This document shows, one piece after another, positions 2,176 to 64,000 of a DNA stretch of 64,000 bases. Both the position numbers and the translations under genes were made by a program. Every line of letters starts with the position of its first letter. The stretch's first letter is position 1. The notes beneath the pieces were generated by a model. The model saw only the letters and a program-made list of their open reading frames with translations, was not told the DNA's origin and did no database searches. Origin of the DNA: Alentia gelatinosa (Eukaryota > Annelida > Polychaeta > Phyllodocida > Polynoidae); contig OX465589.1 of assembly GCA_950022655.1 (NCBI GenBank), positions 29,985,970 to 30,049,969 of the forward strand. The letters are read 5' to 3'.

Positions 2176-3220
2176 ATGCTAAAGCGGCTCTGCAAAAATT
2201 GTGAAATTTGATAGTAGATAAGGTCTCAAAATGATCATTTTATACTTTAACTGAGGTATCATATAATATTGTTTTGTATCTACAGATAAAATATCAATCT
2301 TAAATATGCATTATTTCTGGAATTATAAAGGAAATATGGTTAATTACACTGGTTGCATCATAAGCTATATCGGGGTGTATCGGGACCATGGCACCTTTTT
2401 CATGCACCCTCCCAATACGTTACGACACGCATCGACGCGCACCGACACGAACCGATATGCTACAATATGCCTTCCGACGTGCTACGATATGGTAATTTTG
2501 TATCGGCTCATGTCGGCTCATGTTGTCATTGGTGGGTGCAGGGTCTTAGGGTTAGAGTTAGGTTTAGGGTTAGGGTTGGGGTTGAACTTAAAACACCATT
2601 CTAACAGTATCCTGCAATACAGGTACAGGTACCGGTACAAAAATATTAAGTTCTCTGATGCATTGTAGTTTTGAAATGAATTCTTTACTAAACTGTACAT
2701 CTAGATTTTGAGAATAATCAAAATTAATGTTAGCGATACACACACCACATGTGTCATTTCCTAGCAACTTTAACTAAATATCCAAGCACAGTCTACCTGA
2801 GTCGAGGGCAGACACTGCAGGATGGACACTCAAAACTCGCTCACATTTTCAGCAAAATTTGAAGCTAAGGTAATATAAATAGTAATAATACTTCCAAAAT
2901 ATTCTACTTCATGTATATCCATATTTGCATCTATTCAATACTCAAGTTCAGTACTGGAAAAAAATGGGTCGAATTTGTTGTGGGTCGAGTTCCATTTACG
3001 GGTCGAGTTTGTTGTGGGTTGATTTTTTTATTGATCGATTTTGTTGCGGGTCGAGTTTTTAAATATTCATGAGTGACTAATTGGTTAAGGGTTAGGGTTA
3101 GGGTTAGGGTTAGGGTTAGGATAGGGTAAGGGTTAGGGTTAGGGTTAGGGTAAGAATAGGGTAAGGGTTAGGGTTAGGGTTAAGTACAGGGATAGGAATA
3201 GGGATAGGGTTAGTGATAGG
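2176..3220 (+). repeat. Partial subtelomeric array monomer left of the LINE
   Basis: One incomplete monomer of the same family as the array right of the LINE. It carries the landmark 'atgcattatttctggaat' at 2306, the spacer ending in GAACTTAAAACGCC, the GTACCGGTAC palindrome, the GGGTCGAG minisatellite near 2965-3060, and a TTAGGG-like block from about 3087. It breaks off inside the telomere-like block where the LINE begins, and the remainder resumes at 15166. Confidence 0.9.
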
Positions 3221-3453
3221 ATGGCGACCTGAGCGGAGGTGTGTGACCCGGTGAGAGAGAGAGGATCGATTTGTATGTGTATTTATCTTCTCTAGAGCAA
3301 ACTAATGCAACGGAACTGTGAGTACACGTCAACCTTATATGTTGGGTTTCTTTATTGATGTGGATGACAAGGATTTCCTGTTGATTTTGAGAGATTGTTA
3401 TTGACTTCCACTGACCCGTAAATGACACCCGTTATCGCTCAGCCGTGAAGGCA
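3221..3453 (+). other. LINE 5' untranslated region
   Basis: This stretch lies between the array junction and the first ATG of ORF1. It starts GC-rich, with a short GA-repeat (gagagagaga-like), and becomes AT-rich. No TATA box is evident. LINE promoters are commonly internal to this region, but no specific element is recognised. Confidence 0.5.
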
Positions 3454-5223
3454 ATGTTGAATGCTTGTTCTGCTACCCGTAAAAGGATACGCTCTGGTTC
3501 TGCTAGTCCTCAAAAGACAGTATACAGTAAATTGGGTCTACTCCGTCTCAATATCAGTAAAAAAGCATGTGTTGAACCTATCTTGAACTTGGCAGATTTG
3601 TTCAAAGAAGCAGAGATGCAGAGTGAGGAAACGGATTCAATTCAAAACGATGTGGTCGCCACACCCAAGGTGACAGCTTCGGAGGACATGATTATTATAC
3701 CCGATACCGCTAGTGAGCCTGACATGCCTCTGTTGGAGGAAAATGTACCTGATACGAACTTTGTAAAACTGTTTAGAATGATAGGTTCAATGCCCACTAA
3801 GGAAGGTGAAGTGATAGCGCTAAAGTGTCAACTAGCTCAGAGTAATACTCATTTCAACAACCGCCAAGTAGCACTGGAAAATTGAGTTGATACACTAGAA
3901 AGAAAGATAATGGAGGTAACTGGTGAATTAGCTAGCTGTCGTACCAAGTTGGCTAACCCATTGGCTCATGTCAACGACTGGGGTCCTGCCGGTCAAACAG
4001 GTTCTAAACGCGATGAGCTGGATATCACCACTAACTTCTATTACACCTCGCATGACAGGAATGTTATTGTCTTTGGGGTCCTGGAGGAACGAGATGAAAA
4101 TTTAGAAGAACTATTGAATGATATATGCAATGCAGTGGGCATAGAGATCAGCAAAAGGGATGTTTTACGGGTTGAGAGAATACGTAAGTCATATCGCTCG
4201 TCTCAGGGTCCAGACAGACCGACACCTATCATAATTAGCCTGACCAGTGTGCAGACTAAGAATACATTACTCAATGCGGCTCCTAAGTTGAACCGTTCGC
4301 ACCTGGCCTATGTGAACATCGCACCCGACGAACCCATCGCGATGAGGAGGAAACGTGGGTTACTACGGATGGTGCGGGGATACCAGCGTCGTTTGGGTAA
4401 TTCAGCCAGAATTGAAGGGGACTGCCTGTTTGTAAAAAATATGGTGTTTACTGTAGACGAGGCTGATACGGTTCCTGATATGTTTTTGCCGCCTGACTTC
4501 TTAGCCCGCAGGGACCCGAAACAACAAGTTGAAGTGCTTGACCCAGTTGAACGACCCGTGACCACTCATCCAGTGATTGCCCCTACGCCAGTTGACCCGG
4601 TGCCTATGGCAATTGACACGCTTCCTACTGTGGTCAATGCTAACGCAAGACACGAGGTAGATGTTGATCCCGCAACTGGGAATGCAGAGCGAGATCAGTT
4701 CACTATCAAAGTTGGCGAACAATTGCACAAGTCTGACCTGGGTATTTTCTTCTCTGGTACCTCTGCCTTCATGAGTAATCTATTCCCTTGTGAATTCAAT
4801 TACCATATACAGGAAAGTTGTGTTGATAGAGAGTTTACCTTCTCCTCAGTCGAACAAGGATTTCAGTTTACAAAGTCGTTGTTTAATGAAGATAACGAAA
4901 CAGCGGGGGCTATCTTTGAATCTGAAGACCCCTTCGAGTGTAAACGACTGGGTCAATCTGTCAAGGTCGATGAAGTGGCTGAATGGGACCGTATTAAGGA
5001 TGACAAATTGGCTCGCCTGGCCTTAGCAAAATTTAGGCAAAACAAGTCCCTATGTAATCGCTTGGTCTCAACAGCCCCCACCCCTCTTATCGAAGCGACA
5101 CACAGTCTCTACTGGGGCGCCAGGATTAGGTTTGATTCTGCTACTACCGCCACAAGTTTTCCTGGAGCCAACAGGTTCGGTCAGATCTTGGAAAAGGTAC
5201 GCGAGGAGTTGATGCCGAAATAG
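3454..5223 (+). pseudogene. LINE ORF1 protein with C-terminal NADAR domain (one in-frame TGA)
   Basis: The reading frame has about 589 codons from ATG 3454 (a GTG lies just upstream at 3445), interrupted only by TGA at 3883-3885 (codon 144). Both sides are in the same frame, so one base change accounts for the break. Domains: a Lys/Arg/Ser-rich N-terminus; heptad-like coiled coil around the stop; an RRM-like fold at about 202-270 (NVIVFGV..., PTPIIISL); an ORF1p-type C-terminal domain at about 277-334; a Pro/Val-rich linker; and a NADAR domain at about 429-586. NADAR hallmarks are visible: MSNLFPCEF, SSVEQGFQF (Glu 467), FECKRLGQ, ALAKFRQN, LIEATHSLYWGAR (Trp 554) and GANRFGQILEKVREEL. ORF1 proteins bind element RNA. 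NADAR proteins are linked to NAD/ADP-ribose chemistry. What the fusion does is unknown. Confidence 0.85.
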
Positions 5224-5272
5224 AAATTATCTCTACTAACTGAGGGATTCGCCCAAGTTGTGCTACATAATT

Positions 5273-5899
5273 ATGTCCACTCTCGTTGTTGGAGATTCCC
5301 GGTTGGGTCAAGTGCAGCACTTACTAAGACAGGATCCACATATTATTGACGTGATCAGTCTGCCTGGTGCCACATGGGCTAAAATGGCGGACATTGCTTT
5401 CTGTCTAGCCTCTAGTATCAGTATGGACTTCTCTCTAGTTGTACTATGCGGAGGAATATGTGATACTACATGGAAAGATAGAGCTACAGGAGAGATCGGT
5501 ATAAGATATAAGAATATCCGCGAGTTCACAGTTCACGTGCGAAATTCTATGGATGAAATTGATGCCCTGTTCTACGACTCATATCGACATATCAGGGTGG
5601 TGTATTTCGGAGTGAAGTTATCGCAATACAGCCCTCTCCCATCGTCGTGGATCAACCAAGTGCACCTTGAGATTCTCGTACAACTTGCTAATCAAGAGAT
5701 TATCAAACATAACCAGCGTGGTTATCTTGCTACCCCTCATGTTGCATCGCTGGTCTTTATGCATCATTCTCGCAGTGATAGGATGTCGTTCCTATATAAT
5801 AAACTATATGACGGCTGTCATCTTGACCGTACACACTTGCCGAAGATGGCACGGATCATCACTCGAGCGATACACATGTCCAAGAGTAACTGGGGCTAA
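5273..5899 (+). CDS. SGNH/GDSL-type hydrolase (esterase-like) ORF of the LINE
   Basis: An intact 208-codon ORF from ATG 5273, 49 bases after the ORF1 stop and in a different frame, so it is a separate gene. Block I is VGDSRL (Ser 9 as nucleophile), block II glycine is in PGATW (Gly 32), block III is GGICD (residues 60-64) without the usual Asn, and block V is DGCHL, giving Asp 180 and His 183. The order and spacing fit a small SGNH hydrolase. Esterase domains are known in CR1-like LINEs as part of ORF1; here the domain stands alone between ORF1 and ORF2. The substrate is unknown. Loss of the block III Asn may weaken the oxyanion hole. It is one of the few undamaged ORFs in the element. Confidence 0.75.
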   Translation: MSTLVVGDSRLGQVQHLLRQDPHIIDVISLPGATWAKMADIAFCLASSISMDFSLVVLCGGICDTTWKDRATGEIGIRYKNIREFTVHVRNSMDEIDALFYDSYRHIRVVYFGVKLSQYSPLPSSWINQVHLEILVQLANQEIIKHNQRGYLATPHVASLVFMHHSRSDRMSFLYNKLYDGCHLDRTHLPKMARIITRAIHMSKSNWG

Positions 5900-6728
5900 T
5901 CCTCTGTTAAGACTCATCGATAGTTGTAATGGCCGTAAGGTGTTCAACTAGGTGTCTGACACTCACCATGGCATTTCTTATTTTTTGCCTTATTGACTGT
6001 TGAAAGTATAGACATGTCTGGTATTTGTTGGTTTGGCCGTAAGGTACACCTGTTTATCAATGCCTATTTTGAGATGTTGAATTTATCAATTGCTCTCCAC
6101 TATTGCTACCTATAGCTTTAAGTTATGACCCATTATGTTTGTGTTGTTGTGGCCGTAATGTATACAATTTTTGAACTCCTTGATTTGCTACAAATGTAAA
6201 TGGTGGAGATTACCTGTTGAATAAGCCACGTAGGGATTGTTGTGATTAACACATTGTTAATCTTGTGCGCTATTGTTGTTAAGTACTTTCTACTAGTTTA
6301 CTTCTATGTCTCTCAAGTAAACTGCAAATTAACCAATGGGAATATTGAAAGAGCTGAAAACATTAACCTGTGTACTCTCAGACAATATATGGGTAATATG
6401 GCTGTAAAGTATATTACTCACAGACACAATCTGCCTGATGTAAATTGAATATGTACCTTGTCTTTATTATCCTATTCACTTAAAGGCTTATAGTAAAATA
6501 GTAGTTATCTTCTATTACTAGCGGTCTCTCTCTCTAACACGCTAACCATTTCCCAGAAAACTTAATACCTTTCTTTTCTTATATCTTTTTTTTTTCCTTA
6601 CTAAATTCAGCCAGGGTCGGTCGGTGCTTACTTGACACCGCTCGACTCTCTTTTCACTGGGAACTGGCTGGGGTTGTCCCCACCCGTTTCCCTCTAATAT
6701 CATCTATCTCATCATTTCTTGTTAGACC
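5900..6728 (+). other. Long AT-rich inter-ORF region of the LINE
   Basis: 829 bases between the SGNH ORF and ORF2, longer than expected for a compact LINE. It carries repeated copies of a GGCCGTAAGG-like word at 5931, 6035, 6151 and a weaker copy near 6400. It also has a pyrimidine tract ending in CAG at 6610. A small hydrophobic open frame at 6242-6448 has no ATG start and is not called. Confidence 0.6.
6569..6610 (+). promoter_or_regulatory. Candidate 3' splice site upstream of LINE ORF2
   Basis: A T/C-rich tract of about 30 bases is followed by ttactaaattcag, giving a branch-point-like TACTAA and a CAG end at 6608-6610, about 118 bases before the ORF2 ATG. It would suit a spliced ORF2 message, but a chance pyrimidine run is possible. 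Confidence 0.35.
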
Positions 6729-7517
6729 ATGGAAAGGCGGGGTTTCAAAATAATCCAATGTAATATACGTAGCCTGTATTGTAACCTTGATCAGGTGCGA
6801 CTCATATTTAAGGAGTACGACATGATCGGCTTAACAGAATCATGGCTTAATGAAAAGTACGATAACTCTATGATTCAACTAGAAGGTCATAAAATCTTTA
6901 GACAGGATAGATTGGGTAGGGTGGGAGGAGGAGTAGCGTGCTTTATTTCTCATGAGTTTGCTCCTTATTGTCGGAAAATTGAAAACTTGTCTTTTACGTA
7001 NNNNNNNNNNNNNNNNNNNNNNNNNNNNNNNNNNNNNNNNNNNNNNNNNNNNNNNNNNNNNNNNNNNNNNNNNNNNNNNNNNNNNNNNNNNNNNNNNNNN
7101 NNNNNNNNNNNNNNNNNNNNNNNNNNNNNNNNNNNNNNNNNNNNNNNNNNNNNNNNNNNNNNNNNNNNNNNNNNNNNNNNNNNNNNNNNNNNNNNNNNNN
7201 TAATGAGATTGAGGTGCTGTCTACTAGCCTGCGGAAGCCTGGTTTGAGACACATGTTACTAGTAACTGTTTACCGCCCGCCAAACACAAACATTGAGACT
7301 CATTTACAAGTTCTCACAGATATTCTTGAATCTGATGTTGCTAGGAACTCTAGAGATTTGGATCGTTGGAGATTTCAACTGCGATCTCAAAGCTCGTGGC
7401 AACACTCAGAAAACTAAATTGTTAGATGCCATGAGGGATTTTGAACTTCTACAGCTGATAAACTCGGTGACTAGGCCTAATGATAATAATGGAACTATTC
7501 TGGATCTTGTGTTTACT
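6729..7517 (+). pseudogene. LINE ORF2, N-terminal part: APE-type endonuclease
   Basis: Starts at ATG 6729 in good context (accATGG). Endonuclease motifs in order: IIQCNIRSL (metal-binding Asn), LTESWL (catalytic Glu), RVGGGVACFI, VTVYRPP, and GDFNCDL near 7365. The middle is hidden by the 200-base gap 7001-7200. A one-base shift near 7358 separates VTVYRPP from the GDFN frame. The coding frame ends at TTGTGTTTACT (7517), where the Ngaro element enters, and resumes in register at 12705. The protein would nick target DNA to prime reverse transcription. Confidence 0.85.
7001..7200. other. Assembly gap (200 N)
   Basis: Exactly 200 undetermined bases inside the endonuclease domain. The round number suggests a placeholder, so the true length is unknown and reading frames across it cannot be trusted. 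Confidence 0.99.
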
Positions 7518-7772
7518 CATTACCCTATCCCCGGATGAAAGTAGAGAAGCAGTAGCTGGGAGTAAAGAATTTTATTGAATTCTATGAATAAAATTATGTC
7601 GACCTTACTGGACGATCATATTAATATGTAATATGGATATGAATGGTAAGTAATATTACATAATGGTAATTGACATGTATAATAACGGTCAATTAATATA
7701 AGTATAAAATATGATATACAATACAGTAGTATGAAAAATACGTAGGTAATTGTATATGAAAATAAAATAGCC
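7518..7772 (-). repeat. Ngaro split direct repeat B2 (outer 3' end)
   Basis: 255 bp, apparently identical to 8015-8269. AT-rich, unlike the GC-rich coding body. Its outer end 'cattaccctatcc' abuts LINE sequence at 7517. Confidence 0.93.
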
Positions 7773-7815
7773 CTACGTGAGTAGGAAGATAGAAAGAATG
7801 TTGAGGGTGGGTGGG

Positions 7816-8014
7816 ACGAAAAAGGTGCTTGTAGTATGTGCGTACTGCAGAGCGGGTGGAGAAGAAGTGAGGCCGGGGTCTGGACCGGGCTGTACCACGT
7901 GACCTCGTGGTGTGGGTGAGTGCCGCGAGGGGGCAGGAGGGGCGCCCGTGAGGCGCGGTAGAGGGGGACACCGGGGAGGCAATGATTACCCCTGAGCCAT
8001 GCCCATGGGTTTAC
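7816..8014 (-). repeat. Ngaro split direct repeat A2
   Basis: 199 bp matching A1 (12506-12704) except for two substitutions. It is joined directly to B1 at 8014/8015, reproducing the circle junction. A 43-bp unique spacer (7773-7815) separates it from B2. Confidence 0.93.
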
Positions 8015-8269
8015 CATTACCCTATCCCCGGATGAAAGTAGAGAAGCAGTAGCTGGGAGTAAAGAATTTTATTGAATTCTATGAATAAAATTATGTCGAC
8101 CTTACTGGACGATCATATTAATATGTAATATGGATATGAATGGTAAGTAATATTACATAATGGTAATTGACATGTATAATAACGGTCAATTAATATAAGT
8201 ATAAAATATGATATACAATACAGTAGTATGAAAAATACGTAGGTAATTGTATATGAAAATAAAATAGCC
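8015..8269 (-). repeat. Ngaro split direct repeat B1
   Basis: 255 bp, the inner copy of B2. It ends 39 bases from the recombinase stop codon, so it also serves as the 3' untranslated region of the coding transcript. Confidence 0.93.
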
Positions 8270-8308
8270 AAGAGCCAATATAAGGAGGGGGGGGTGGGAG
8301 AAAAAATA

Positions 8309-9240
8309 TTAAGAATTGTTGAGGGACCTAATCAAAGCATGGTTCACAGCGGAGGCATCAGTGTCTTTGATGTAGGTCCGATGGGCATTAGACTTCCAGT
8401 CCCCATACCGCTGGATGGCGAGTTCCGGCATACCGGCCTGGAATGCCTGCGTCGCGGCAGCCTTCCGGAGACTGTGGAGTGTGTATGTGGGGGGCTGGTT
8501 TGCCGCCTGGAGGAGTGATTTCCATTCCCTTGACAGGGTTCTGGTCGTGAGAATCTCTCCGTTCGCCAGGCTGAGGAACGGAGCCGTAGGGTCGGCCGTA
8601 GGTGCGGCCGCATGGTCCGTATGGCCCGGACCGGGCAGGAGGACGGTTCGAGGGAGGCTCGTATCACCACTGTCTTTTCCTCCCCCGCTCTCTGCATGTT
8701 TTTCGCCGCTTTTACCCTTATCGATGCTTGACTGGGCGTGACGACCACGTCTCGGCGTGACAGGTGTCGCGCCGGGTCGTACTTTGCCGTAGATGGTGGA
8801 GCCACTTCGCTTTGCCGCAGCACGGCAAAGTAGATGATTAGAACCGCGGCCCTCAGACCGATGTGCATCGGGGAGTCTGTGAGGGCCATGAGGGCCACCC
8901 TGAAGACGTCCATCGGGACCGGAGGCTTGACGTTGGGATGGTATTCCTTGTTCCGTCTCATGGCATCCAGTGCCCGCTTCACCCGGAAATCCTCGGTTGC
9001 CGCGACATCGCCGCCCGTCAGCCGGAGGTGCGACCGCACGTGCGACAGCTGGTTCGCGACCGTCGCGGGAGAGGGGGCGTGGCCCGCGACGTACTCTAGG
9101 TACGCCGTGGTGAAGGACACTGTGGGTTACTGGGGGTCCGCCCCCATCCTCCGGCAAAAGGCTAGGTAGGTCGCGCCGGCACTCCGCTGGTTCGCGACCG
9201 TTCCGGGGGCACGCGCCTCGCACTGCCGCGCAGATGCCCT
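8309..9240 (-). pseudogene. Tyrosine recombinase (YR) of the Ngaro element, stop plus frameshift
   Basis: The N-terminal SAM-like segment reads GATYLAFCRRMGADPQ, then hits a TAA, and continues from about 9120 in the same frame (FTTAYLEYVAG..., VANQLSHVRSHL). The catalytic domain shows the first Arg in FAVLRQSEV. Near 8590 the frame changes. The rest of the domain is in the other frame: HSLRKAAATQ (H-x-x-R), GDWKSNAHRTYIKD with the Tyr nucleophile, and a stop at 8309. All four key positions can be seen, but in two frames and behind a stop. The enzyme would integrate the circular DNA copy without duplicating the target. Confidence 0.85.
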
Positions 9241-10980
9241 CGTCTGGAGTGATCGTAGCGCGGGATCTGCAGGCGAGACAGAGAACGGGGTAGAAAGAGG
9301 TGTGTGTACATGGGATCACTTCAACGAGAGAATGATAATTTATATAATTAACGGCCATGACAAAGTCCCTCGAGGTCAGGTGGGCTCGGCTGAGGGCGTC
9401 TGCCACGGTGTTAAGCACCCCCGGCATGTGTGTGTACACGAACTCCACCTGGAGTCTGGCTTGTACTGTCCAGGCCTGGCGGGCACACTCGGCGAGGACC
9501 GGGTTCCTGGCACGCCCCGACCTGAGTGCCTGGACTGTTCCCATGTTATCGCAATACACTTCCACACGAGTCCCTCGGTCGCGATCCGTGAGGAAGGTGC
9601 ACATTGCGTAGACCGTATTGAGGGCCTCCAGCTTGGCGATACAGTCCACGGGGTCCTCCACGGGGCAGACCCTACCGCAGTAGTAGTATCTCCCATCCGT
9701 GCCCCCTACTCCACTGAGGCACGCGTCCACTATGATGCATTTGGTGGGAGGCCCTCGAGGTATCAGGGCATGGCCGTTCCATCCCTCGGCGAACCGCAGG
9801 AACCACTGGAGGTCCTGCCGCATCTCCGAGTTGACGTTGATGTAGTATCCGGCCATGCCTCGGAGGGCCTCGAGCAGTTTGCTGACGAACGGTCGTATAC
9901 ACTTCGCCACGTGGAGGACCCGACCGAGGACCGACTGGAGTTGGCGTTTCTTCAGCGAGCGTTTGGTTGAGACGGCCCTCACGTGCTCCCGCACATCGTG
10001 TAGTTTGTCCCGGGGGATACTGAGGGACATATCCACCGAGTTTATGACTATCCCTAGCCACGTCACAGCCCGGCTTGGGGGCTGCGCCTTTTCCCTAGCC
10101 TCGGGGAGGCCCAGCTCCCTGAAGAGCTCCCGCGCTGTCTCGAAGTCGGCGGCCGCCTTGCCGGCCGTTGGGGAGAGGATTATGAGGTCGTCCAGGTACA
10201 TCGCGGCATCGACCCCCTTCCGGTCGAGGATCTTGACGATGGCATCTGCTACGCACTGCATGTGGTAGGAGGAGGCCCGGGCACCGAACGGCATGGCCGT
10301 ATCACAGTAGTACCCCTCCCCCCACGCGAAGCAGAGCAGAGGCCAGTCGAGGGGGTCGCACCGGAAGTTCTTATACGCCCGTGCAATGTTGATGGTGGAC
10401 ATATAACTCCCCGGCCCCGAGGCCACCAGGCGGCCGACGAAACCATCCACGGTCAGGAGGCCGTGTTCTCTCTCTTCACCGTAGACAGAGTTTTTCACGA
10501 TATAGCCGTTAACGCTGGATTCCTTGGGGTACGTCATATCCGTGATCACGCGCCTATCAGACGTACCCCTCTTCTCGCGTGTCATTAACGGCGACATGTG
10601 GCACCAAGGCTGAAAGGGTGGGTCCTCGAACGGGCCCATGAGGTTTGAATGCCCCTTCTCCTTGTCAATGAACCTCGCTATCTGGTCCGGGTATCCAAAG
10701 GCACTGGGTTGGTTGGGCACACCCCGCGTGTCGGTAACCGGTCCGGCGTACCCGAGGGGAAACCCAAACCTAATGAAATCCATGAGTTCCTCCTTCCCGG
10801 GGATACCCGCGAGGTATCGGATCCAGACTGGGATGTTGAGATCAGTGGGGATCTGGATACGGGTCCCGAGGGCGTTGGGCATTCCCGTGCACCGCACCTG
10901 ATCGTAGATGTCGGCGTGTCCCGGCGGCCCGGGAGTGGGGCCAGTGGGCCCGCCTATGTCCGGCGAACGTGCCGGGGTCG
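9241..10980 (-). CDS. Reverse transcriptase-RNase H of the Ngaro element
   Basis: An open frame on the minus strand covers this whole segment. RT motifs include SDRRVITDMTYP, the palm aspartate replaced or shifted in STINIARAYKNF, DTAMPFGARASSYHMQ, and the YLDDLIIL catalytic box near 10190. RNase H follows with VDACLSGVGGTDG (near 9720), EALNTVYAM, VYCDNMGTVQ and PGVLNTVADALSR (near 9400). The same frame stays open to 8309, but beyond about 9241 it is not recombinase-like until about 8600, so a single 957-residue protein is not implied. The upstream start is unclear; 10981-11293 is open in several frames without a recognised domain. No adenine methyltransferase domain is seen, which favours Ngaro over DIRS1. 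Confidence 0.88.
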
Positions 10981-11293
10981 GTCCGGACCCCGGGAGTGGG
11001 TATTCCGGTCTCCCAGAACTCCCTAACGGCATCGAAGTCGATTCGTAGGTTATCGTTGCCGTCCTCCCGGGGCAATTGCTGAGCCAATTGCTCCACATCC
11101 CCGCCGTCGCCCCTATACACGGGAGTGTATTCCTGAGGGGGCAGGGTTGTCTGCTTGTGTGCGTCCCCCACGTGCTCGGCACGCGGTGTTGTGGTCACGT
11201 GGGGTGTTACGTCACGGGTCGTGCACTCCTTGACCGGGTCGCCCTCGCTGAGTGCACACGTACCGGGTGCGAGGGGTGTTACACGCGCCACAC

Positions 11294-12408
11294 TCACTCG
11301 CGGGGCGCGTCCAGTCCGTTTTTTGAAGCCATTGCTTGTTGTTTCTGCACTCCTGAGAGGTCGGTGGTGCGCAGCGTGTGTCCGGCCTGGGGCATCCGGC
11401 GTGGGGCAGGTGCAGGTGTTGGTGCAGCACTCTCATACCCGCCACCGTACAACAGCTTCCTGTTGCACGCGTGTATGGAGTGCGTGCACATCCTGCCAAC
11501 GGAATCACAAAAGGAGCACACGTGCACCCATTTAATTCCGCCATCTTGGTGACCGTTCAGCTGGCGGCAGCCCCTCTCCGAGTTGAATGCCGGGCACGGC
11601 AGCTCCCGTCCTCCGGCCTTGCCCGCGTCTTGACCGTCGTGGTCGCCGTCATCGCGAGACGGACACGCTCGTCCTGTATGCGCACATGGTCGGACCAGTA
11701 AATCCTCCCGGCCTCGACCTGGTCGAAAACGTACTGGGACCAACGCCTTACTCCGGCCCACGGCCGGGTCTGGGCATCGATCGATACCTGGGACAGGTGG
11801 CGATACATGTCCCTCCTGTCCTCCTCTGGGACGGCCCGGTGGTCCTCCATCATAACCAGAAACGCGCTTACATACTCCATCGGACCGAGCGTGCCCCTGA
11901 CCTCGAGCCTCTGATTCACGGTGAAGAGGACCTCGCGTTCCACATACATATAAGGTTTAGACAGCAATCTAACGGTATGAAGATCTGAACTAAACCTACC
12001 GGCCGTACGGTCGTGTCGTAGTCCCTCACGGTCGAGTTCTTTCTCTAGCAGCTCGTCTGGGAGGTACCGGTCGCGAAGCTGACGGGGTGCCGGTAGACGG
12101 GATGCTTGATCGTTGGCCCAGTCCCTGGTCCGGTCCTCCGCGACGGTGGCCTCTCTAACGGTCGCCGGTTGAGATGCCCTCGATGGTGATTTTGCCCGTT
12201 GAAGTCCTTTTATCGCCTCGAGTATCAAGGCGACATTCCCCTCCAGTGCCGTTATTCTCGACGTCTTGACCGTTGATCCATTTTCCGAAACGGAGTCCAC
12301 GTGTTCGTTCGACGCCTGTGTCGAACCTCTGACCGTGGCCTTGGAGCCTGCGGCCGCCTGCGGTTCCTGGGACGTGCTAGGCACGGGCGTATTCCTGGTG
12401 TTCGGCAT
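11294..12408 (-). pseudogene. Gag-like protein of the Ngaro element, frameshifted
   Basis: Starts at ATG 12408. It has an N-terminal Ser/Thr/Ala-rich region, a short coiled-coil stretch (ITALEGNVALILEAIKGL), and a central region with TRPWAGVRRWSQYVFDQV, which aligns with element 1 gag. Near 11655 the frame shifts. The C-terminal frame (to 11294) carries CPAFN and a zinc-finger-like series H-x8-C-x2-C-x8-H-x4-C. Such C/H motifs are usual at the end of Ngaro/DIRS gag proteins. The break is at a different place from that of element 1, so both are independent lesions. Confidence 0.75.
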
Positions 12409-12505
12409 GGTCCACTCTCCTCTATCGTTCTATCGCACTTTATCGTAGTATGGTGTGCTGGCCTATACTCGTGGAGTATTGGGCTGCGAGCACGTGGCCA
12501 AGAAA

Positions 12506-12704
12506 ACGAAAAAGGTGCTTGTAGTACGTGCGTACTGCAGAGCGGGTGGAGAAGAAGTGAGGCCGGGGTCTGGACCGGGCTGTACCACGTGACCTCGTGG
12601 TGTGGGTGAGTGCCACGAGGGGGCAGGAGGGGCGCCCGTGAGGCGCGGTAGAGGGGGACACCGGGGAGGCAATGATTACCCCTGAGCCATGCCCATGGGT
12701 TTAC
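12506..12704 (-). repeat. Ngaro split direct repeat A1 (outer 5' end)
   Basis: 199 bp, partner of 7816-8014. Its outer end reads GTAAACCCATGGGC on the minus strand and abuts LINE sequence at 12705. It contains the presumed start of the element transcript, though no promoter motif is clear. Confidence 0.93.
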
Positions 12705-14925
12705 AATTGTCGTCATATATTGGTTTCTGGTGTCTTAAACGATCTTATTGCTGATCACCTCCCAACTTTTGTTGTGCGAAAGAAAACTAAGGAGCCCAAA
12801 AAGAAAGTCAAATTGAAAGGCTGTTCATACCGTAATTATTCGATTGATGACCTAGCTGACTACCTAACTACCGTGGATTGGTCTATGTTTTGGAACAGCA
12901 GTGATCCGAATGTCTTATGGGAATTTATTGACTCTATATTGAACAACTACTTAAACGAAGTTTGTCCTCTTAAGTGTATGACATTTAACAGGGCCAAAGA
13001 CCCGTGGGTAACGGATGAAATACATACTAAAATAGAGTTACGCCGGTGTCACATTAGGGACTTTAATGCCAGAGGTGTGTGTGAAGACTTGGTTAAATCA
13101 AGGCGTCTGAGTAATGAAATCAGGCAATGTTTAAAACAAGCTAAGAATGCTTTCTGTCTTGACCAATTAGATCGTGTGAGCAGCAAGCCATATGAATTTT
13201 GGAGACACATTCGTTCTTTACTATATGGTAATAATGCTGAAACTGATTGCCGCTTAGTTGACGAAGAAACAAACATGGAAGTTCCTGCAGAGGAAACTGC
13301 TACATTTATAAACAACTACTTTAGTGGTATTGGTGAAAAACTCTTCAGCAAATGTGACTCACAGGGTTATGAGATGCTATTAAATCAATTAAAAGGGAAG
13401 CATAATGTGACTCCCCCGGTAACTGTTAGAGTAACTAGGAAGGCTGTTATGGATCATATAAAAGAACTTAATGTGCACAAAAGCTCAGGGTTAGATCATG
13501 TTTCTGGGCGTGTTATAAAGGATTGTATGTCTCTACTATGTAACGAATTCACTTACTTATATCAATGTTCCCTTGATGCTGGAGTTGTTCCTGACCGGTG
13601 GAAAATTGGACTAGTGGTCCCTATACCTAAATCTGGGGACTTAACTAAGATAAGCAACTGGCGTCCTATTACCTTACTGTGTAGTCCGGCCAAAATACTG
13701 GAACGTATAACATATCAATTTATGTCAGACTATATTGAATGCAATCAACTCCTAAGTAGTACACAGTATGGATTTAGAAAGAAACTTGGTACCTCGGACG
13801 TTGTTTTTGATTATCTAGATGACCTATACAATGCTAGAAATGATAGAAATGTTGTGGCCTCTTGTTACTTTGATTTGAAGAAGGCCTTCGACGCTGTCCC
13901 GCATGAGTTATTATTGCAGAAACTAAATGGAATTTTTATGTTACCCCCAAATCTTGTTCTATGGTCGGAAAATTACTTACTTAATAGGAAGCAAAAGGTC
14001 TTTATAAATGGAATTACCTCTTCACTAGCATCGGTTGATTTTGGAGTCCCGCAAGGAAGTGTGCTGGGGCCACTGTACTTTAATTTATTCATAAATGACA
14101 TGTGCAATCAGATACAGAGTTGCATTTCCTATCATTATGCTGACGACCTTGTGGTATTCAGTTGTGGAGTTGATCCAGTAGAAACCAAAGAATCTCTTCA
14201 AGAGGCTGTTAATGTTATCTCCAATTGGTGTTTGTGTAACGGCATGACCGTAAATAAGGACAAAACTAAGACGTGTTGGTATGCATCGGAAAAGCGATTA
14301 TGTTATTTACCTGACCTCAACATTGATTGTGAAAATAATCGATTAACAACGGTGAAAAATTACAGATATCTGGGTATTCTACTAGACAGTGGCTTAACTT
14401 TCAAACCTCATGTACGGGATGTAAAGAAAAATGTTAGTCATAAGATCTTTAAATTAGGAAAGATAAGAACACAAATAAGCAAAAATGTGGCCTTATTGAT
14501 TTATAAGACCGTAATTCGACCACAACTAGAATACTGCTCGTACGTAATTGACTGTTCGACAAAGACTGAGATTGAGGCATTGCAAAAGCTCCAAAATAGG
14601 GCATTACGTGTCGTACAATATCGAAGAGTTAAGCGACAGCAGGTAGTCAAGTTACATCAAGATCATAAAGTAGATTTTTTGGATGTACGGAGAAGTATGC
14701 ATTTGTTAAGTATAATTTACAAGAGGTCAAAGAATGTCAACCTACTCGATAACTCACTGGGTAAAGTTCAAGTCACGACGTATTAACTGTAATCATTTCT
14801 TTAAGTCTCCAATGTACAGAGCTATAGTTTTGTGGAACTTATTGGATTCCAAAGTGCAATTGTTAGACAACAAGCTTGCATTCAAACGAGTAATTAAACG
14901 GATTTACTCGGCCTATGATTCGTGA
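12705..14925 (+). pseudogene. LINE ORF2, C-terminal part: reverse transcriptase
   Basis: Continues the endonuclease frame after the Ngaro insertion. RT motifs in order: NWRPITLLCSPAKILE, STQYGFRKKLGTSD, YFDLKKAFDAVPH, GVPQGSVLGPL, YHYADDLVVFS (YADD catalytic box near 14140), GMTVNKDKTK and YRYLGILLDSGLTF. The main frame stops at 14784-14786. A one-base shift near 14760 moves the conserved LINE tail (FFKSPMYRAIVLWNLL...) into the next frame, ending at 14925. No RNase H domain is visible. The enzyme copies element RNA at the nicked target. Confidence 0.9.
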
Positions 14926-15165
14926 AGTATTGACATCAATATCACCCATCATCATACCACTATATATATACAAGTACTTTACGCGGGATTATGACAGCTA
15001 TATCAACTCACTATTACATACTTTTCTGTTAAACTATGCCATTTAATGCATACGTATCTAGATGTATTACTGTTTACCTGGAGTTCTATGTTAACCGACA
15101 GTGGAAGAACTTTCTCACGAAAGAACTGTTTGTTCAATAAATAAAAAAAAATTAAATAAAAAAAA
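14926..15165 (+). other. LINE 3' untranslated region and A-rich tail
   Basis: 240 AT-rich bases ending in AATAAA (15136-15141) and two A-runs separated by 'ttaaat'. The tail runs directly into ATAGGG of the array. The double A-run suggests either a short 3' microsatellite or an interrupted poly(A) tail. Confidence 0.75.
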
Positions 15166-18100
15166 ATAGGGATAGGGATAGTGTTAGTGTTTAGGGTTAG
15201 GGTTGGTGTTGAACTTAAAACGCCCTTCTAACAGTATCCTGCAATACAGGGTTAGGGTTAGGGATAGGGTAAGGGTTAGGGTTGGGATAGGGATAGGGTC
15301 AGGGTTAGGGTTAGGATAGGGTTAGGGATAGGGCTAGGGATAGGGTTAGGGATAGAGCTAGGGATGGGGATAGGGTTAGGGTTAGGGCTAGGGTTAGGGT
15401 TAGAGGGGGTGTCCACCAAGCTCCCGACGCGAACTGACGTGCCCCGATATTGCCCTTCCGATACAAAATCCATATCGTAACAAAATCGTAGAGCTTATCG
15501 GGGCAGTTGGTAAGTTTTCTACGATAACGCTACTGACGCGGCTCAATGCGCACCGACGCGAACTGATGCAAAACCTGTATCGCAGTGTATAGATGACTCT
15601 TTTAACGGGAAATCATGTGAAATAATCGAAAGAAAATTATGAAATTTTCAGAATCTGTAGAATCTATAATGCTAAAGCGGCTCTGCAAAAATTGTGAAAT
15701 TTGATATTAGATAAGGTCTCAAAACGATCATTTTATACTTTAACTGAGGTATCATATAATATTGTTTGGTATCTACAGATAAAATATCAATCTTAAATAT
15801 GCATTATTTCTGGAATTATAAAGGAAATATGGTTTATTACACTGGTTGCATCATGAGCTTTATCGGGGTGTATCGGGACCATGGCACCTTTTTCATGCAC
15901 CCTCCCAATACGTTACGACGCGCAACGACGCGCAACGACGCAAACCGATACACTGCGATATGCCTTCCGACGTGCTACGATATGGTAATTTTGTACCAAG
16001 CACAGTCTACCTGAGTCGAGGGCAGACACTGCAGAATGGACACTCAAAACTCGCTCACATTTTCAGCAAAATTTGAAGCTAAGGTAATATAAATAGTAAT
16101 AATACTTCCAAAATATTCTACTTCATGTATATAGATATTTGCATCTATTAAATACTCAAGTTCAGTACTGGAAAAAAATGGGTCGAAATCGTTGTGGGTC
16201 GAGTTCCATTTACGGGTTGAGTTTGTTGTGGGTCGAGTTTGTTATTGATCGATTTCGTTTCGGGTCGAGTTTTTGAGTATTCATGAGTGACTCTAATTGG
16301 TTAAGGGTTAGGGTTAGGGTTAGGGTTAGGGTTAGGGTTAGGGTTAGGATAGGGTAAGGGTTAGGGTTAGGGTTAAGTACAGGGATAGAAATAGGGATAG
16401 GGTTAGGGAGAGGGTTAGTGATAGGGATAGGGATAGTGTTAGTGTTAGGGTTAGGGTTGGTGTTGAACTTAAAACGCCCTTCTAACAGTATCCTGTAAAA
16501 CAGGGTTAGGGTTAGGGATAGGGTAAGGGTTAGGGTTTGGATAGGGATAGGGTCAGGGTTAGGGTTAGGATAGGGCTAGCGATAGGGTTAGGGATAGAGT
16601 TAGGGATTGGGATAGGGTTAGGGTTAGGGCTAGGGTAAAGGTAAGAGGGGGTGTCCACCAAGCTCCCGATGCGAACTAACGCGCCCTGATATTGCCCATT
16701 CGATACAAAATCCATATCGTAACAAAATCGTAGAGCTTATCGGGGCAGTTGGTAAGTTTTCTACGATAACGCTACTGACGCAGCTCAACGCGCACCAACG
16801 CGAACTGATGCAAAACCTGTATCGCAGTGTATAGATGACTCTTTTAACGGGAAATCATATGAAATAATCGATAGAAAATTATGAAATTTTCAGAATCTGC
16901 AGAATCTATAATGCTAAAGCGGCTCTGCAAAAATTGTGAAATTTGATAGTAGATAAGGTCTCAAAACGATCATTTTATACTTTAACTGAGGTATCATATA
17001 ATATTATTTTGTATCTACAGATGAAAAATCAATCTTAAATATGCATTATTTCTGGAATTATAAAGGAAATATGGTTAATTACACTGGTTGCATCATGAGC
17101 TATATCGGGGTGTATCGGGCCCATGGCACCTTTTTCATGCACCCTCCCAATACGTTGCGACGCGCACCAACGTGCACCGATGCGAACCGATATGCTACGA
17201 TATGCCTTGCGACTTGCTACAATATTGTAATTTTGTATTGGCTCGCGTCGGCTTGTGTCGGCGTTGGTGGGTGCAGGGTCTTAGGGATAGAGTTAGGTTT
17301 AGGGTTAGGGTTGGGGTTGAACTTAAAACGCCATTCTAACAGTATCCTGCTATACAGGTACAGGTACCGGTACAATAATATTAAGTTCTCTGATGCATTG
17401 TAGCTTTGAAATGCATTGTTTACTAAGCTGTACATCTAGATTTTGAGAATGATAAGAATCAATAAAAGCAATACACACACCACAGGTGTCATTTCCTTAA
17501 GACTGTAACTAAATATTCAAGCACAGTCTATCTGAGTCGAGGGCAGACACTGCAGAATGGACACTCAAAACTCGCTCACATTTTCAAGCAAAATTTGAAG
17601 CTAGGGTAATATAAATAGTAATAATACTTCCAAAATATTCTACTTCATGTATATCCATATTTGCATCTATTAAATACTCAAGTTCAGTACTGATAAAAAA
17701 ATGGGTCGAATTCATTGTGGGTCATGTTCCCTTTACGGGTCGAGTTTATTGTGGGTCAAGTTTTTTATTGATCGATTTCGATGGGGTCGAGTTTTCGAGT
17801 ATTCATGAGTGACTCTAATTGGTTAAGGGTTAGGGTTAGGGTTAGGGTTAGGGTTAGGATAGGGTAAGGGTTAGGGTTAGGGTTAAGTACAGGGATAGGA
17901 ATTGGGATAGGGTTAGGGAGAGGGTTAGTGATAGGGATAGGGATAGTGTTAGTGTTAGGGTTAGGGTTGGTGTTGAACTTAAAACGCCCTTCTAACAGTA
18001 TCCTGCAATACAGGGTTAGGGTTAGGGATAGGGTAAGGGTTAGGGTTTGGATAGGGATAGGGTCAGGGTTAGGGTTAGGATAGGGTTAGGGATGGGGATA

Positions 18101-49678: not shown

Positions 49679-49702
49679 AGAGGAGGTTTCCCCCCCCAGC
49701 AG

Positions 49703-51688
49703 ATGGTTAATGTCCTGATAGCTGGGGAAGGCGACTTACCATGTGGAGATGCACTCTTCGAGCCAGACCCAGAACTGTTTTCTAAAAAAGGAATACAGGC
49801 CTGGGATACCTTGATCGGAAGTGCCAGAGAAGGATCAATTCCTATAAGTAATCATACCTCCGGGTTGATTAAATTAAGGAAGGGTGATACATTAGGCTGG
49901 GTAACTCTAGCTCATGTAGATGGCCTAGTGGACTCCAGTCCACAGGGAATCACACCTATTCCCGTTTCCGAAATAACCGGGGAAGATGAACAATCTGAAC
50001 TGGGAAGGTCGGACTTAATAGGAAATGATTATGAAGAAGTGCGGGTTAGTGCTATCAATACAGGAACGGGATCCCTTCCAGTTCCAAGTCCATTGCACGA
50101 AACTCTGGAAACTTTAGTTCAGACGACAGACGCACTAAGCAGTGGGGAACGACATGAACTAAGGATTCTTTTGAAGATGGAGTCAATCTTTACTCGACCT
50201 GGAGATCCCTTGGGGAGAACGGATCGAGTAGAACACACGATTGACACTGAAGGTCATCAACCTTTCCGCCTTCCTTATCGACGGCTACCTCCGGTAAAAC
50301 GGGAAGCTTTAGAAGAGGAAGTAGGGAAAATGATGGACCAGAAAGTAATCATCCCCAGTGCAAGTCCTTGGGCTAGCCCGGTGGTAATGGTTACTAAAAA
50401 GGATGGTACTTGCCGATTCTGTATTGATTACAGAAAATTGAATGGTATCACCCGGAAGAATGCTTACCCAATACCCCGGATCGATGAGAGTCTCGACTCT
50501 CTGGGAGGGAACCAGTGGTTTTGTACTCTGGATCTCCAGTCTGGATATTGGCAAGTAAAGATGAACAGTGGCGATCAGTCTAAAACGGCGTTCACCACTC
50601 ATCAAGGGCTTTACGAGTTCACAGTAATGCCATTTGGCCTCTGTAACGCTCCCGCAACTTTCGAATCCATGATGGATCAGATGTTGCGGGGTCTACAGTG
50701 GAAAAAGTGTTTGGTTTATCTAGACGACATAATCATCTTCGGAAAGAATTATGTTGAATGTTTAGAAAACCTGAGAGAGGTATTTGAGCGGATTCAATCT
50801 TATGGGTTGAGGCTCAAACCTCAAAAATGCAAACTGTTTCGCAAATCTGTGGAATACTTGGGACGGATAGTTTCCGGAAATGGAATCCGGGCAGATCCTT
50901 CCAAGTTGGAGGTAGTGGCTAATTGGCCACGCCCCCAGAATATAAAAGACATAAGGTCTTTCCTAGGATTTTGTTCGTATTACCGCAACTTTATCCCGGG
51001 TTTTTCTGAAATTGCACACCCTATGCAACAGTATGTAGTACTAGATAAGCCAGGGAAGCAAAAAGAGATCCAATGGACTCCGGAAGCTGAACACGCTTTT
51101 CTGGGACTAAAAAGAAAGTTTATGGAGACCCCCGTGTTGAAATACCCTCTAGCCCAGGGTCAGTTCATTCTCGACACTGACGCTAGTAATAAGAGTATTG
51201 GAGCGGCTTTGTCTCAGATACAAGATGGTGTGGAAGTTCCAATAGCTTTTGCCAGCAACAGCTTAAGTAAAAGCCAGCGGAACTACTGTACTACTAAGAG
51301 GGAACTCTTAGTGGTTGTGGTGTATGTAAGAAAATATCGACACTTCTTAGCAGGTGGAAATTTCATCTTACGTACTGACCATTCTTCTCTCAAATGGCTC
51401 TTTAACTTTAAAGACGCCGAGGGAATGATTGGAAGATGGCTGGCAGCTCTCTCCGAATTCGGGTTGACTAACTGCCAGATTGAGCACCGGGCTGGAAAGT
51501 CACACATTAATGCGGATTGTCTCTCAAGGAGACCAGTGCGGAAATGTGGACGATCAGATTGCCGGGATTGTGGCGAGCATAGAGCAGTAATAGCTACTCT
51601 ACGTTCCCAGAAAGTGAAGCCGCCACTAAACTATCAGTGGACACTAGAACATATTAAGGAAAGTCAACAGGCTGTTCCGGTTAACTAA
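49703..51688 (+). pseudogene. Gypsy pol: reverse transcriptase and RNase H, protease missing
   Basis: 661 codons from ATG 49703. The first 80 or so residues resemble the linker after a protease (ISNHTSGLIKLRKGDTLGW), but no D-T/S-G protease site is present upstream. RT motifs: SPWASPVVMVTKKDG, CIDYRKLNGIT, TLDLQSGYWQVKM, MPFGLCNAPATFE, LVYLDDIIIFG (near 50720) and FLGFCSYYRNFI. RNase H: LDTDASNKSIGAALSQ (near 51175), RTDHSSLKWLF and HINADCLSR. The frame stops at 51688 and integrase continues in another frame. Confidence 0.9.
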
Positions 51689-51784
51689 ACTGATAGCTAA
51701 TGGACTCCATAGACCTACAGGACCCGAGATCTCGCCTGAAAACCGAGAATTTCGGAATCTATGTGGTCAATGGAAATAGCTAGA

Positions 51785-53351
51785 AGTCCGAGATGGGGTA
51801 CTATATCGATGGAGAACCACATTGCAACCACTTAAATGTGCTCTACAACTAGTGGTCCCTCGAGAATTACGATCCGGACTAATGACTCTATGTCATGAAC
51901 ATAGGAGTGCAGCTCATCTAGGAAGGAAAAGGACGGTAGCCAGAATAAGGCGTCATTACTACTGGCCTGGAATGGGTGCAGATATTCGAAGATGGGTATC
52001 TCGATGTTCCATATGTAGCAAAGTCAAACCCGGGGTAGGACTCGGAAAGATGCCGTTACAACAGGAACTGTTTGATGTCAGGTTTGCCAGAATCGCTCTA
52101 GATATCATATCTGGTATCGACGAGTCAGAGGAAGGAAATACCTGTATGATGGTGGTGATGGATTATTACACAAAATATGTGCAGATCTATCCCATGAAAA
52201 ATCACAAAGCTGCCACGTGTGCGGAAGCTTTAGTGAAAAACTGGATGTTGCCTTTTGGAACTCCGAGCGTACTACATTCCGACCAGGGAAGGGAATTTGA
52301 ATCCCAGATCTGGAAAGAAATGTGTAGGATACTCGAGATTAAAAAGACACATACGAATCCATATCGTCCCCAATCAGATGGTATGGTAGAGAGATTCAAC
52401 CGGACATTGATCCAGTGTCTTCGGACCCTGGTAGATGAAAATCGGAAGAATTGGGATGAATTAGCACCATTTATAGCTCACGCATACAATGGGACCATTC
52501 ATTCAAGCACGGGGTGTTCACCTAATTTACTCGTCTTTGCCGAGGAAATAGTAATGCCCGCTGACATAGTCTATGGGGTTCCTGGAATGTCTACGGATGA
52601 TCCTTGTCCCATAGGATTTGTCAAGAAACTCAGAGAACATTTTATAGAGGGATATTACCTCGCGAGACGGAATCTGACGAAAGCAGCAGAGTGGCAAAAG
52701 ACTGGACATGACGTCAATCTTAAACCACGTAAGTTCCGAGTAGGAGACCGGGTTGTACAATACCACACTCCGTTGGTAAATGTAAAACTCGCTCCTAACT
52801 GGGACGGACCATTCAGAATTGTTCAATTATTGTCAGAGATGACAGTAGTGATAGAAGACGAATGGTCAAGAAGGCATTATAAATCCCATGTAGCTCGTTT
52901 ACGACTATGGGAAGGAAAGCGCGAATGTTCCGACTTTGAAGTTTCACACCCTGCTACAAAGCGGGATGTGTCACTGAACACGGGTTCTACTGGGAAACCA
53001 GAGGGGTCCTGGGTTCAAAGAGCCGGGAAGCCGGGTGTCAAACCCCCGTCAATACGGCGGAGGCAGGCCCCGATAGGGAAGTCCCGGTCAAAGGTTACCG
53101 GGGTTCCGAGTGGGTGCTCGCCTACACGGCGAAAACCGGGACGTCCGCGGAAGGTAATTCCTACTTACGCCAACCTAAAAAGGGAAGTGTGGGTAGAAGA
53201 AAAACCTGACATGGAAAAGTCTAAATTTTCTACAAATCGAGCTGTGTATAATAAACATGGTTCGAGATGTAGAATGGAGTCTAAAATAGACTCAAAACCC
53301 CGCCACAGCTCTCGACTAAAATCGAAGGCTGTGGTTAGCTACAAAGAGTAG
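51785..53351 (+). pseudogene. Gypsy integrase with GPY/F module and AT-hook-like tail
   Basis: In another frame from RT. A TAG just upstream (about 51779) cuts off the extreme N-terminus. The HHCC zinc-binding domain is visible (HEHRSAAHLG...CSICSK). The catalytic core gives the DDE set: Asp in LDIISG, Asp in HSDQGREF, Glu in GMVERFNRTL. A GPY/F-like module (WDGPFRIVQLL) follows near 52800. The tail is unusually long and basic, with RRKPGRPRKV (near 53140), an AT-hook-like core. No chromodomain is seen. It joins element DNA into the host chromosome. Confidence 0.87.
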
Positions 53352-61800: not shown

Positions 61801-64000
61801 GCGCACCGACGCGAACTGATGCAAAACCTGTATCGCAGTGTATAGATGACTCTTTTAACGGGAAATCATATGAAATAATCGATAGAAAATTATGAAATTA
61901 TTTTCAGAATCTGTAGAATCTATAATGCTAAAGCGGCTCTGCAAAAATTGTGAAATTTGATAGTAGATAAGGTCTCAAAACGATCATTTTATACTTTAAC
62001 TGAGGTATCATATAATATTGTTTTGTATCTACAGATAAATTATCAATCTATTGCATTATTTCTGGAATTATAAAGGAAATATGGTTAATTACATTGGTTG
62101 CATCATGAGCTATATCGGGGTGTATCGGGACCATGGCACCTTTTTCATGCACCCTCCCAATACGTTACGACGTGCACTGACGCGCACCGACGCGAACCGA
62201 TACGCTACGATATGCCTTCCGACGTGCTACGATATGGTAATTTTGTATCGGCTCGCGTCGGCTCGTGTCAGCGTTGGTGGGTGCAGGGTCTTAAAGTTAG
62301 AATTAGGTTTAGGGTTAGGGTTGGGGTTGAACTTAAAACGCCATTCTAACAGTACCCTGCAATACAGGTACAGGTACCGGTACAAAAATATTAAGTTCTC
62401 TGATGCATTGTAGTTTTGAAACGAATTGTTTACTAAGCTGTACATCTAGATTTTGAGAATAATCAAAATTAATGTTAGCGATACACACACCACATGTGTC
62501 ATTTCCTAGCAACTTTAACTAAATATCCAAGCACAGTCTACCTGAGTCGAGGGCAGACACTGCAGAATGGACACTCAAAACTCGCTCACATTTTCAGCAA
62601 AATTTGAAGCTAAGGTAATATAAATAGTAATAATACTTCCAAAATATTCTACTTCATGTATATCCATTTTTGCATCTATTAAATACTCAAGTTCAGTACT
62701 GGAAAAAAATGGGTCGAATTCGTTGTGGGTCGAGTCCCATTTACGGGTCGAGTTTGTTGTGGGTCGAGTTTTTTATTGATCGATTTTGTTGAGGCTCGAG
62801 TTTTCGAGTATTCATGAGTGACTAATTGTTTAAGGGCTAGGGTTAGGGTTAGGGTTATGGTTAGGGTTAGGGCTAGGGTTAGGATAGGGTAAGGGTTAGG
62901 GTTAGGGTTAAGTACAGGGATAGGAATAGGGATAGGGTTAGGGAGAGGGTTAGTGATAGGGATAGGGATAGTGTTAGGGTTAGGGTTGGTGTTGAACTTA
63001 AAATGCCCTTCTAACAGTATCCTGCAATACAGGGTTAGGGTTAGGGATAGGGTAAGGGTTAGGGTTGGGATAGGGATAGGGTCAGGGTTAGGGTTAGGAT
63101 AGGGTTAGGGATTGGGCTAGGGATAGGGTGAGCGATAGAGTTAGGGATGGGGATAGGGTTAGGGTTAGGGCTAGGGTTAGGGTTAGAGGGGGTGTCCACC
63201 AAGCTACCGATGCGAACTGACACGCCCCGATATTGCCCTTCCGATTCAAAATCCATATCGTAACAAAATCGTAGAGCTTATCGGGGCAGTTGGTAAGTTT
63301 TCTACGATAACGCTACTGAGACGGCTCAATGCGCACCGACGCGAACTGATGCAAAACCTGTATCGCAGTGTATAGATGACTCTTTTAACGGGAAATCATA
63401 TGAAATAATCGATAGAAAATTATGAAATTTTCAGAATCTGTAGAATCTATAATGCCAAAGCGGCTCTGCAAAAATTGTGAAATTTGATAGTAGATAAGGT
63501 CTCAAAACGATCATTTTATACTTTAACTGAGGTATCATATAATATTGTTTTGTATCTACAGATAAAATATCAATCTTAAATATGCATTATTTCTGGAATT
63601 ATAAAGGAAATATGGTTAATTACACTGGTTGCATCATGAGCTATATCGGGGTGTATCGGGACCATGGCACCTTTTTCATGCACCCTCCCAATACGTTACG
63701 ACGCGCACTGACGCGCACCGACGCGAACCGATACGCTACGATATGCCTTCCGACGTGCTACGATATGGTAATTTTGTATCGGCTCGCGTCGGCTCGTGTC
63801 GGCGTTGGTGGGTGCAGGGTCTTAAGGTTTGAGTTAGGTTTAGGGTTAGGGTTAGGGTTGAACTTAAAACGCCATTCTAACAGTACCCTGCAATACAGGT
63901 ACAGGTACCGGTACAAAAATATCAAGTTCTCTGATGCATTGTAGTTTTGAAACGAATTGTTTACTAAGCTGTACATCTAGATTTTGAGAATAATCAAAAT
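58854..64000 (+). repeat. Subtelomeric array, continuation to the window end
   Basis: Resumes at 'tttgcatctattaaatac' exactly where the Gypsy element interrupted it. Monomer landmarks are near 62051 and 63582 (1,531 bp apart). The first two units are shortened by internal deletions (joins near 59587, 60619 and 60708). Confidence 0.93.
61292..61353 (+). repeat. Longest uninterrupted TTAGGG run in the window
   Basis: About 62 bases of perfect GGGTTA repeats (roughly ten copies) inside one monomer. Other monomers have about four to eight. This is the vertebrate-type telomere repeat, here interstitial. Confidence 0.9.

Follow-up and report, generated by a model that had tools for sequence, protein, structure and literature searches.

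The window analysed here is a stretch of 64,000 nucleotides from the polynoid annelid Alentia gelatinosa (contig OX465589.1, positions 29,985,970 to 30,049,969 of the forward strand), and it contains a long interspersed nuclear element (LINE; 3220..15167, plus strand) whose first open reading frame (ORF1) ends in a NADAR domain of the YbiA type. This element is a damaged member of a three-ORF LINE lineage with diverse copies, here termed type A, which encodes an ORF1-NADAR protein, an SGNH-like ORF, and an endonuclease-reverse transcriptase (RT) ORF. In the window, all on the plus strand, ORF1 comprises an N-terminal part with a basic, disordered region and the start of a coiled coil (3454..3882), an L1-type RNA recognition motif (RRM; 4048..4329), an L1-type C-terminal domain (CTD; 4315..4509), a low-confidence linker (4516..4704), and, in frame downstream of the RRM/CTD, the NADAR domain (4759..5211). 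It is followed by a separate SGNH/GDSL-esterase-like ORF of 208 aa (5273..5896), a spacer with no recognised ORF (5900..6725), the endonuclease part of ORF2 (6726..7521), and the RT part of ORF2 (12699..14783; PF00078, 5.3e-35). The 3' end reads AATAAATAAA and is followed by poly(A). The order of the ORF1 parts was taken from a structural model of a sister copy, L009, in which residues up to 373 match 2ykp and residues 376-438 have a predicted local distance difference test score below 50; the CTD and linker boundaries were transferred to the window by offset mapping.

A first-pass annotation of this DNA had proposed both the NADAR domain and its continuity with an upstream RRM/CTD module of ORF1p. 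Profile searching bore out the former, the domain matching PF08719 at 2.2e-25 with 90.2 bits (curated cut-off, 35.1), and the open frame at 3886-5220, read together with the L009 model, bore out the latter. The profile of the riboflavin-intermediate N-glycosidases, TIGR02464, also scored above its cut-off. The fold is NADAR/YbiA-like, with structure matches by sequence to 8bau (P. nicotianae NADAR) and 2b3w (E. coli YbiA), the ADP-ribose complex 8bau being the best; a chance resemblance to NADAR was ruled out by these profile and structure matches. We then aligned the LINE domains, taking residue roles from the relevant passages of PMC11543638 (the papers below are likewise cited for the passages concerned) and residue equivalences from our own alignments. 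All 24 type-A rows share the equivalents of P. nicotianae E43, K50, K75, W89, E125, and W133, and so do both rows of each of two further LINE lineages of this genome, type B and a Tx1-like lineage (discussed later), so that the Glu and Trp residues whose conservation the annotation had proposed checking are indeed kept. In the window, the E43, K50, E125, and W133 equivalents lie at 4852..4854, 4873..4875, 5092..5094, and 5113..5115, respectively, on the plus strand. These rows, and those of the NADAR tree, omit near-copies (L001-L005, L010, and L019), the damaged L012, the broken L048, and the minus-strand L006 and L008; in a 23-row set that includes L012, each catalytic Glu is found in 22, and L006 and L008, read separately, agree at both Glu, the Lys, and the Trp. 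The residue at the E125 position, which marks the YbiA subfamily, is Glu (neither Asp nor His) in every type-A row. Seven IMG/VR NADARs (L029-L035) all have His here, a replacement described for phage gp30.3-type NADARs (PMC11125620). In all 28 LINE rows, E125 and W133 are separated by a loop that has one residue fewer than in the host, phage, and most bacterial rows; as most IMG/VR rows share the shorter length, however, the loop is no proof of common descent.

The remaining parts of the element were assigned by model, motif, and profile. The coiled coil, RRM, and CTD are as in human L1 ORF1p in the L009 model with its 2ykp match, and gave no Pfam hit. The ORF after ORF1, which the annotation does not mention, is predicted to be an SGNH hydrolase by its motif blocks (GDS, Gly, and D-x-x-H), with Asp8-Ser9, Asp180, and His183 invariant in 17 rows, and by its modelled fold: Foldseek matched its AlphaFold2 model to 1yzf (1.8e-4) and to the ZfL2-1 esterase 4c1b (0.014), with a template-modelling score of ~0.5. 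A Pfam search with this ORF gave no match. No shared ORF of at least 60 aa was recognised in the spacer when 11 loci were inspected by eye. ORF2 of L009 carries an endonuclease (PF14529, 9.1e-10) and an RT (PF00078), and L009, its near-copy L010, and the window element end in poly(A), as expected of an autonomous LINE; in the window piece of the endonuclease, PF03372 reached merely 0.035. Type-A RTs share 22-26% identity with the Tx1-like RT and lack its RQG..LSP motif, which places them outside Tx1. We take them to be CR1/Jockey/L2-like from the motif GVPQGSVLGP, a clade name resting on motifs rather than on named reference RTs.

The window copy is damaged in several ways. It aligns with L009 1077-7743 in four pieces of 97.8-99.0% identity (blastn), but its ORF1 is interrupted by a stop at 3883-3885, resumes at 3886, and is 63 nt (21 codons) shorter than that of L009. 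ORF2 is split by an inserted DIRS-like element on the minus strand (7522..12698), recognised by its RT (PF00078), its tyrosine recombinase (PF00589), and its junctions, and the endonuclease part contains a run of 200 N at 7001-7200; since this run sits between two bases that are adjacent in L009, apparently no LINE base was lost there. A 290-aa ORF within the DIRS-like element (11557-12429, minus strand) is resembled, by eye, by another of 290 aa at 1135-2007 on the same strand. The ORF1 breakage recurs in L001 (G000:C11:29832048), a copy lying ~158 kb upstream on this contig, with frames of 156 and 445 aa and an SGNH ORF 3 aa longer than that of the window; the shared defect points to a duplication, or to a single defective source for both copies. 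Near the start of ORF1 lies a conserved RKRxRSxSxSP-like motif (window 3454-3600; ORF1 alignment columns 37-60), a possible nuclear-localisation or phosphorylation site.

The fusion is widespread in this genome. Searches with the window NADAR (150 of 2793 candidates scored) and with PF08719 (150 of 3136 scored) had 29 places in common and together gave at least ~271 distinct NADAR places; 132 of the 150 places scored with the window NADAR have no stop within the match. We examined 25 longer type-A loci of 7.5-10 kb (20 high-scoring and five lower-scoring, chosen for ORF1 frames of at least 550 aa, and including the near-copies L009/L010 and L018/L019). In all 25, the NADAR, SGNH-like, endonuclease, and RT parts occur in this order, some frames being broken, which rules out a one-off capture and extends the fusion beyond the single copy first annotated. 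Because the loci were found through NADAR, these counts are no measure of relatives that lack it. A shorter locus outside this set, L006, lacks any SGNH frame of at least 150 aa downstream of NADAR, with a piece of ORF2 following closely, and so looks internally deleted. Two of the NADAR places fetched, L041 and L049, are not LINE-like.

Two comparisons bear on whether the domain is maintained. Across 13 families, the mean p-distance is 0.560 for NADAR and 0.555 for RT, and the two distances correlate (r=0.82; none of 2000 permutations as high). The domain is thus as conserved as RT across families whose RTs are ~55% different, and is co-inherited with it. The dN/dS check proposed by the annotation gave signs of purifying selection, apparently acting on the type-A NADAR: ω (IQ-TREE, GY+F3X4) was 0.048 for NADAR (22 rows), 0.046 for RRM-CTD (21 rows), and 0.043 for SGNH (20 rows), values that are rough because the codon model shows saturation at synonymous sites. 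Only four pairs were usable for pairwise dN/dS (dS 0.02-1.5). Three pairs of the window clade with L012 gave 0.11 at dS ~1, and the near-identical pair L018/L019 gave 0.95, as expected of decaying insertions. The good order of NADAR across such diverse copies suggests that the element uses the domain, perhaps against host defence. That it is a captured passenger without function, as the broken window copy might imply, is very improbable, being contradicted by ω values near 0.05 and by invariant catalytic residues at this depth of RT divergence.

The NADAR domain lies behind an RRM-CTD-like part in all three LINE lineages. In type B (L042 and L044), an ORF1 with RRM-CTD and NADAR is followed by an ORF with GDS and DGxH motifs; between these two loci, tblastn matched only L044 to the window SGNH (4e-6), and an RT piece behind L042 (L046) is 32-41% identical to type-A RTs. 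The Tx1-like lineage (L043 with L045) has NADAR in ORF1 and an endonuclease and RT of L1/Tx1 type, and no ORF of at least 100 aa was found on the same strand in the 1.7 kb after this ORF1. The type-A RRM-CTD profile matched L042, L044, and L043 with hhalign probabilities of 97.6, 98.1, and 92.4, respectively. In the NADAR tree, type A forms a single clade (97/94), with the deeper branching order left without resolution. By the approximately unbiased (AU) test, a single common origin of the three sets of LINE NADARs was neither established nor rejected (p=0.24), L049 was compatible with kinship to type A, and an exclusive clade of type A and the stand-alone gene L041 was rejected (p=2e-5); L041 clusters with the bacterial and phage sequences included in the tree. 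L041 1102-1827 (G000:C11:13149326) is a 242-aa frame that shares 55% identity with a Bacillus plasmid NADAR and keeps all contact residues checked except at the R93 position (Cys). L049 1-1092 (G000:C5:15169251) holds NADAR in a 1040-aa frame with a glycine-zipper match below cut-off, and no LINE part was seen in the piece fetched. Searches for a viral or bacterial donor yielded matches of 26-31% identity in IMG/VR (seven loci) and of 29.7-33.1% in phage records (among the matches listed, 15 of 137); in genome contigs, none of 28 pattern matches was confirmed, the search detecting only relatives that share the chosen patterns.

Elsewhere in the window, degenerate GGTTAG/AGGGTT arrays with a recurrence of ~1.5 kb occupy 15248-46551 and 59015-63186, and a shorter array of this type (3083-3220) directly precedes the LINE. 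A Gypsy-like pol lies at 49679-53351, with RT and RNase H at 49679-51685 and an ORF at 51780-53351 that is integrase-like by eye. An Rfam scan of the window at gathering thresholds gave no match.

The annotation had left open whether such a fusion was already described. NADAR in a Tx1 ORF1 is in print: for several Repbase Tx1 LINEs of Crassostrea gigas, the ORF1s apparently contain NADARs of the YbiA family, according to a passage that includes no conservation or selection analysis (PMC12477816). The Tx1-like relative L043/L045 in this genome resembles those elements, whereas the window LINE differs from them in its non-Tx1 RT and its additional SGNH-like ORF. We found no earlier description of a non-Tx1 NADAR-LINE lineage, nor of RRM/CTD, NADAR, and SGNH in one LINE; in the open-licence literature, no other LINE-NADAR report appeared among the matches listed, and no paper on an SGNH-containing three-ORF LINE was found. 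Ectocarpus Gypsy long-terminal-repeat elements also bear an acquired NADAR (PMC12477816), likely a separate acquisition. The type II (L1-like) ORF1 of CR1/L2 LINEs shares the coiled coil, single RRM, and CTD, but the parts given in Table 1 of PMC4120745 are PHD, esterase, CCHC, and RRM/Tnp22, and the term NADAR is absent from the text concerned. Esterase ORF1s were known there only from two vertebrate subgroups of the Jockey superfamily (PMC4120745). The ZfL2-1/CR1 elements likewise encode an SGNH fold, but within an ORF1p that lacks an RRM (PMC3905857), whereas in type A it is a separate ORF beside the RRM-CTD-NADAR ORF1; according to the same source, no Repbase esterase ORF1p had an RRM. The 8bau and 2b3w proteins share the NADAR fold and, for 8bau, the catalytic Glu, Lys, and Glu, but are stand-alone.

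Building on the computed anatomy, recurrence, co-inheritance with RT, purifying selection, and kept residues, we infer a mechanism from the substrate onwards, to which we give about even odds (a probability of roughly 0.5). The coiled coil and RRM/CTD would load ORF1p onto the element's own RNA and thereby bring NADAR into the ribonucleoprotein (RNP), where it may, by hydrolysis, free guanines in this RNA or in the nascent cDNA of ADP-ribose; host or incoming ADP-ribosyltransferases would thus be kept from blocking translation or target-primed reverse transcription (TPRT), which would amount to counter-defence or to repair in cis. NADARs can undo the ADP-ribosylation of guanine in both DNA and RNA, and they alone, among the hydrolase families tested, acted on RNA guanosine (PMC11543638, PMC11833690). 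The higher activity of one NADAR was suggested to stem from nucleic-acid binding (PMC11833690), an effect that fusion to the RNA-binding ORF1p might provide. The genome contains PARP-type writers (26 PARP-domain matches counted by exon, which is not a count of genes). PARP catalytic-domain matches lie in single open frames of 1664-2398 aa (G000:C3:100268284, C3:100306873, C1:66423675, C5:61723270, and C11:51285936), long for intron-bearing host genes. Of what the annotation proposed, the LINE ORF1-NADAR fusion holds, and the possible part in ADP-ribose handling is consistent with the retention of the catalytic residues and with published NADAR biochemistry.

Several points weigh against hydrolysis of guanine-linked ADP-ribose on the element's nucleic acid. 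Besides the roughness of the ω values and the ratio of the L018/L019 pair, two ADP-ribose contacts are changed: the equivalent of R79 is kept in none of the 24 type-A rows and that of D130 in four (it is not Asp in the window). In 8bau both residues, although not described there as essential, contact the pyrophosphate of ADP-ribose, D130 through water (PMC11543638), so affinity or specificity may differ in the LINE domain. In published assays, E. coli YbiA was less active on RNA than the DarT1-linked NADAR (PMC11833690), and NADARs outside DarT operons were inefficient antitoxins (PMC11125620, PMC11833690). Our genome search found no DarT homologue, and no guanine-specific writer was identified in the genome.

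The replacement of these two contacts makes altered specificity or mere binding the main rival. In its binding form, which we consider unlikely, NADAR would steer the RNP by binding ADP-ribose, or host nucleic acid or protein that carries it, and would hydrolyse little or nothing; loss of the R79 equivalent in 24 of 24 rows and of the D130 equivalent in 20 of 24 speaks for it, whereas both catalytic Glu residues and the Lys, not obviously needed by a pure binder, are invariant, and the D130 contact was made solely through water. Somewhat less probable is a substrate other than element nucleic acid, such as small NAD/ADP-ribose-derived or riboflavin-type N-glycosides or ADP-ribose of RNA repair. 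The TIGR02464 score is consistent with this, as is the proposal of soluble ADP-ribose derivatives as phage NADAR targets (PMC9503650), but in three LINE lineages the domain is joined to a protein that binds nucleic acid, which argues otherwise, and the same paper favours macromolecular ADP-ribose for NADARs of eukaryotic RNA viruses. Moreover, the Asp of the SNA-3 D343 type, whose homologue is described as one of several critical residues in YbiA (PMC9303266), is mostly missing, if D343 corresponds to D130, as its spacing to the Trp suggests. Removal of ADP-ribose from RNP proteins or PARP-modified target chromatin is more doubtful again, although it would suit a genome with PARP-domain matches. 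TPRT nicks DNA, and nicks recruit PARPs. Against it, NADARs have been shown to act on linkages to the guanine base, but not on those to thymine or to phosphate ends (PMC11543638, PMC11833690), and no report of NADAR activity on proteins was found in the NADAR literature consulted.

What NADARs do across eukaryotes, including animals, has been called unclear (PMC11125620); in the one known animal case, nematode SNA-3 requires its NADAR domains for spliced-leader trans-splicing by a reaction described as unknown (PMC9303266). The occurrence of an SGNH-like ORF and an RRM-CTD ORF1 as neighbouring ORFs of one LINE stands beside the statement on esterase ORF1p in PMC3905857, which concerned single proteins. 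As a tentative extension of hydrolysis in cis, LINEs might carry their own nucleic-acid de-ADP-ribosylase within the RNP against an undiscovered host system that ADP-ribosylates guanine in retroelement RNA or cDNA, three lineages having acquired or traded the NADAR. A selected, active-looking LINE NADAR suggests that retroelement nucleic acid may come under pressure from guanine ADP-ribosylation, and the type-A domain offers a concrete enzyme and substrate for testing this.
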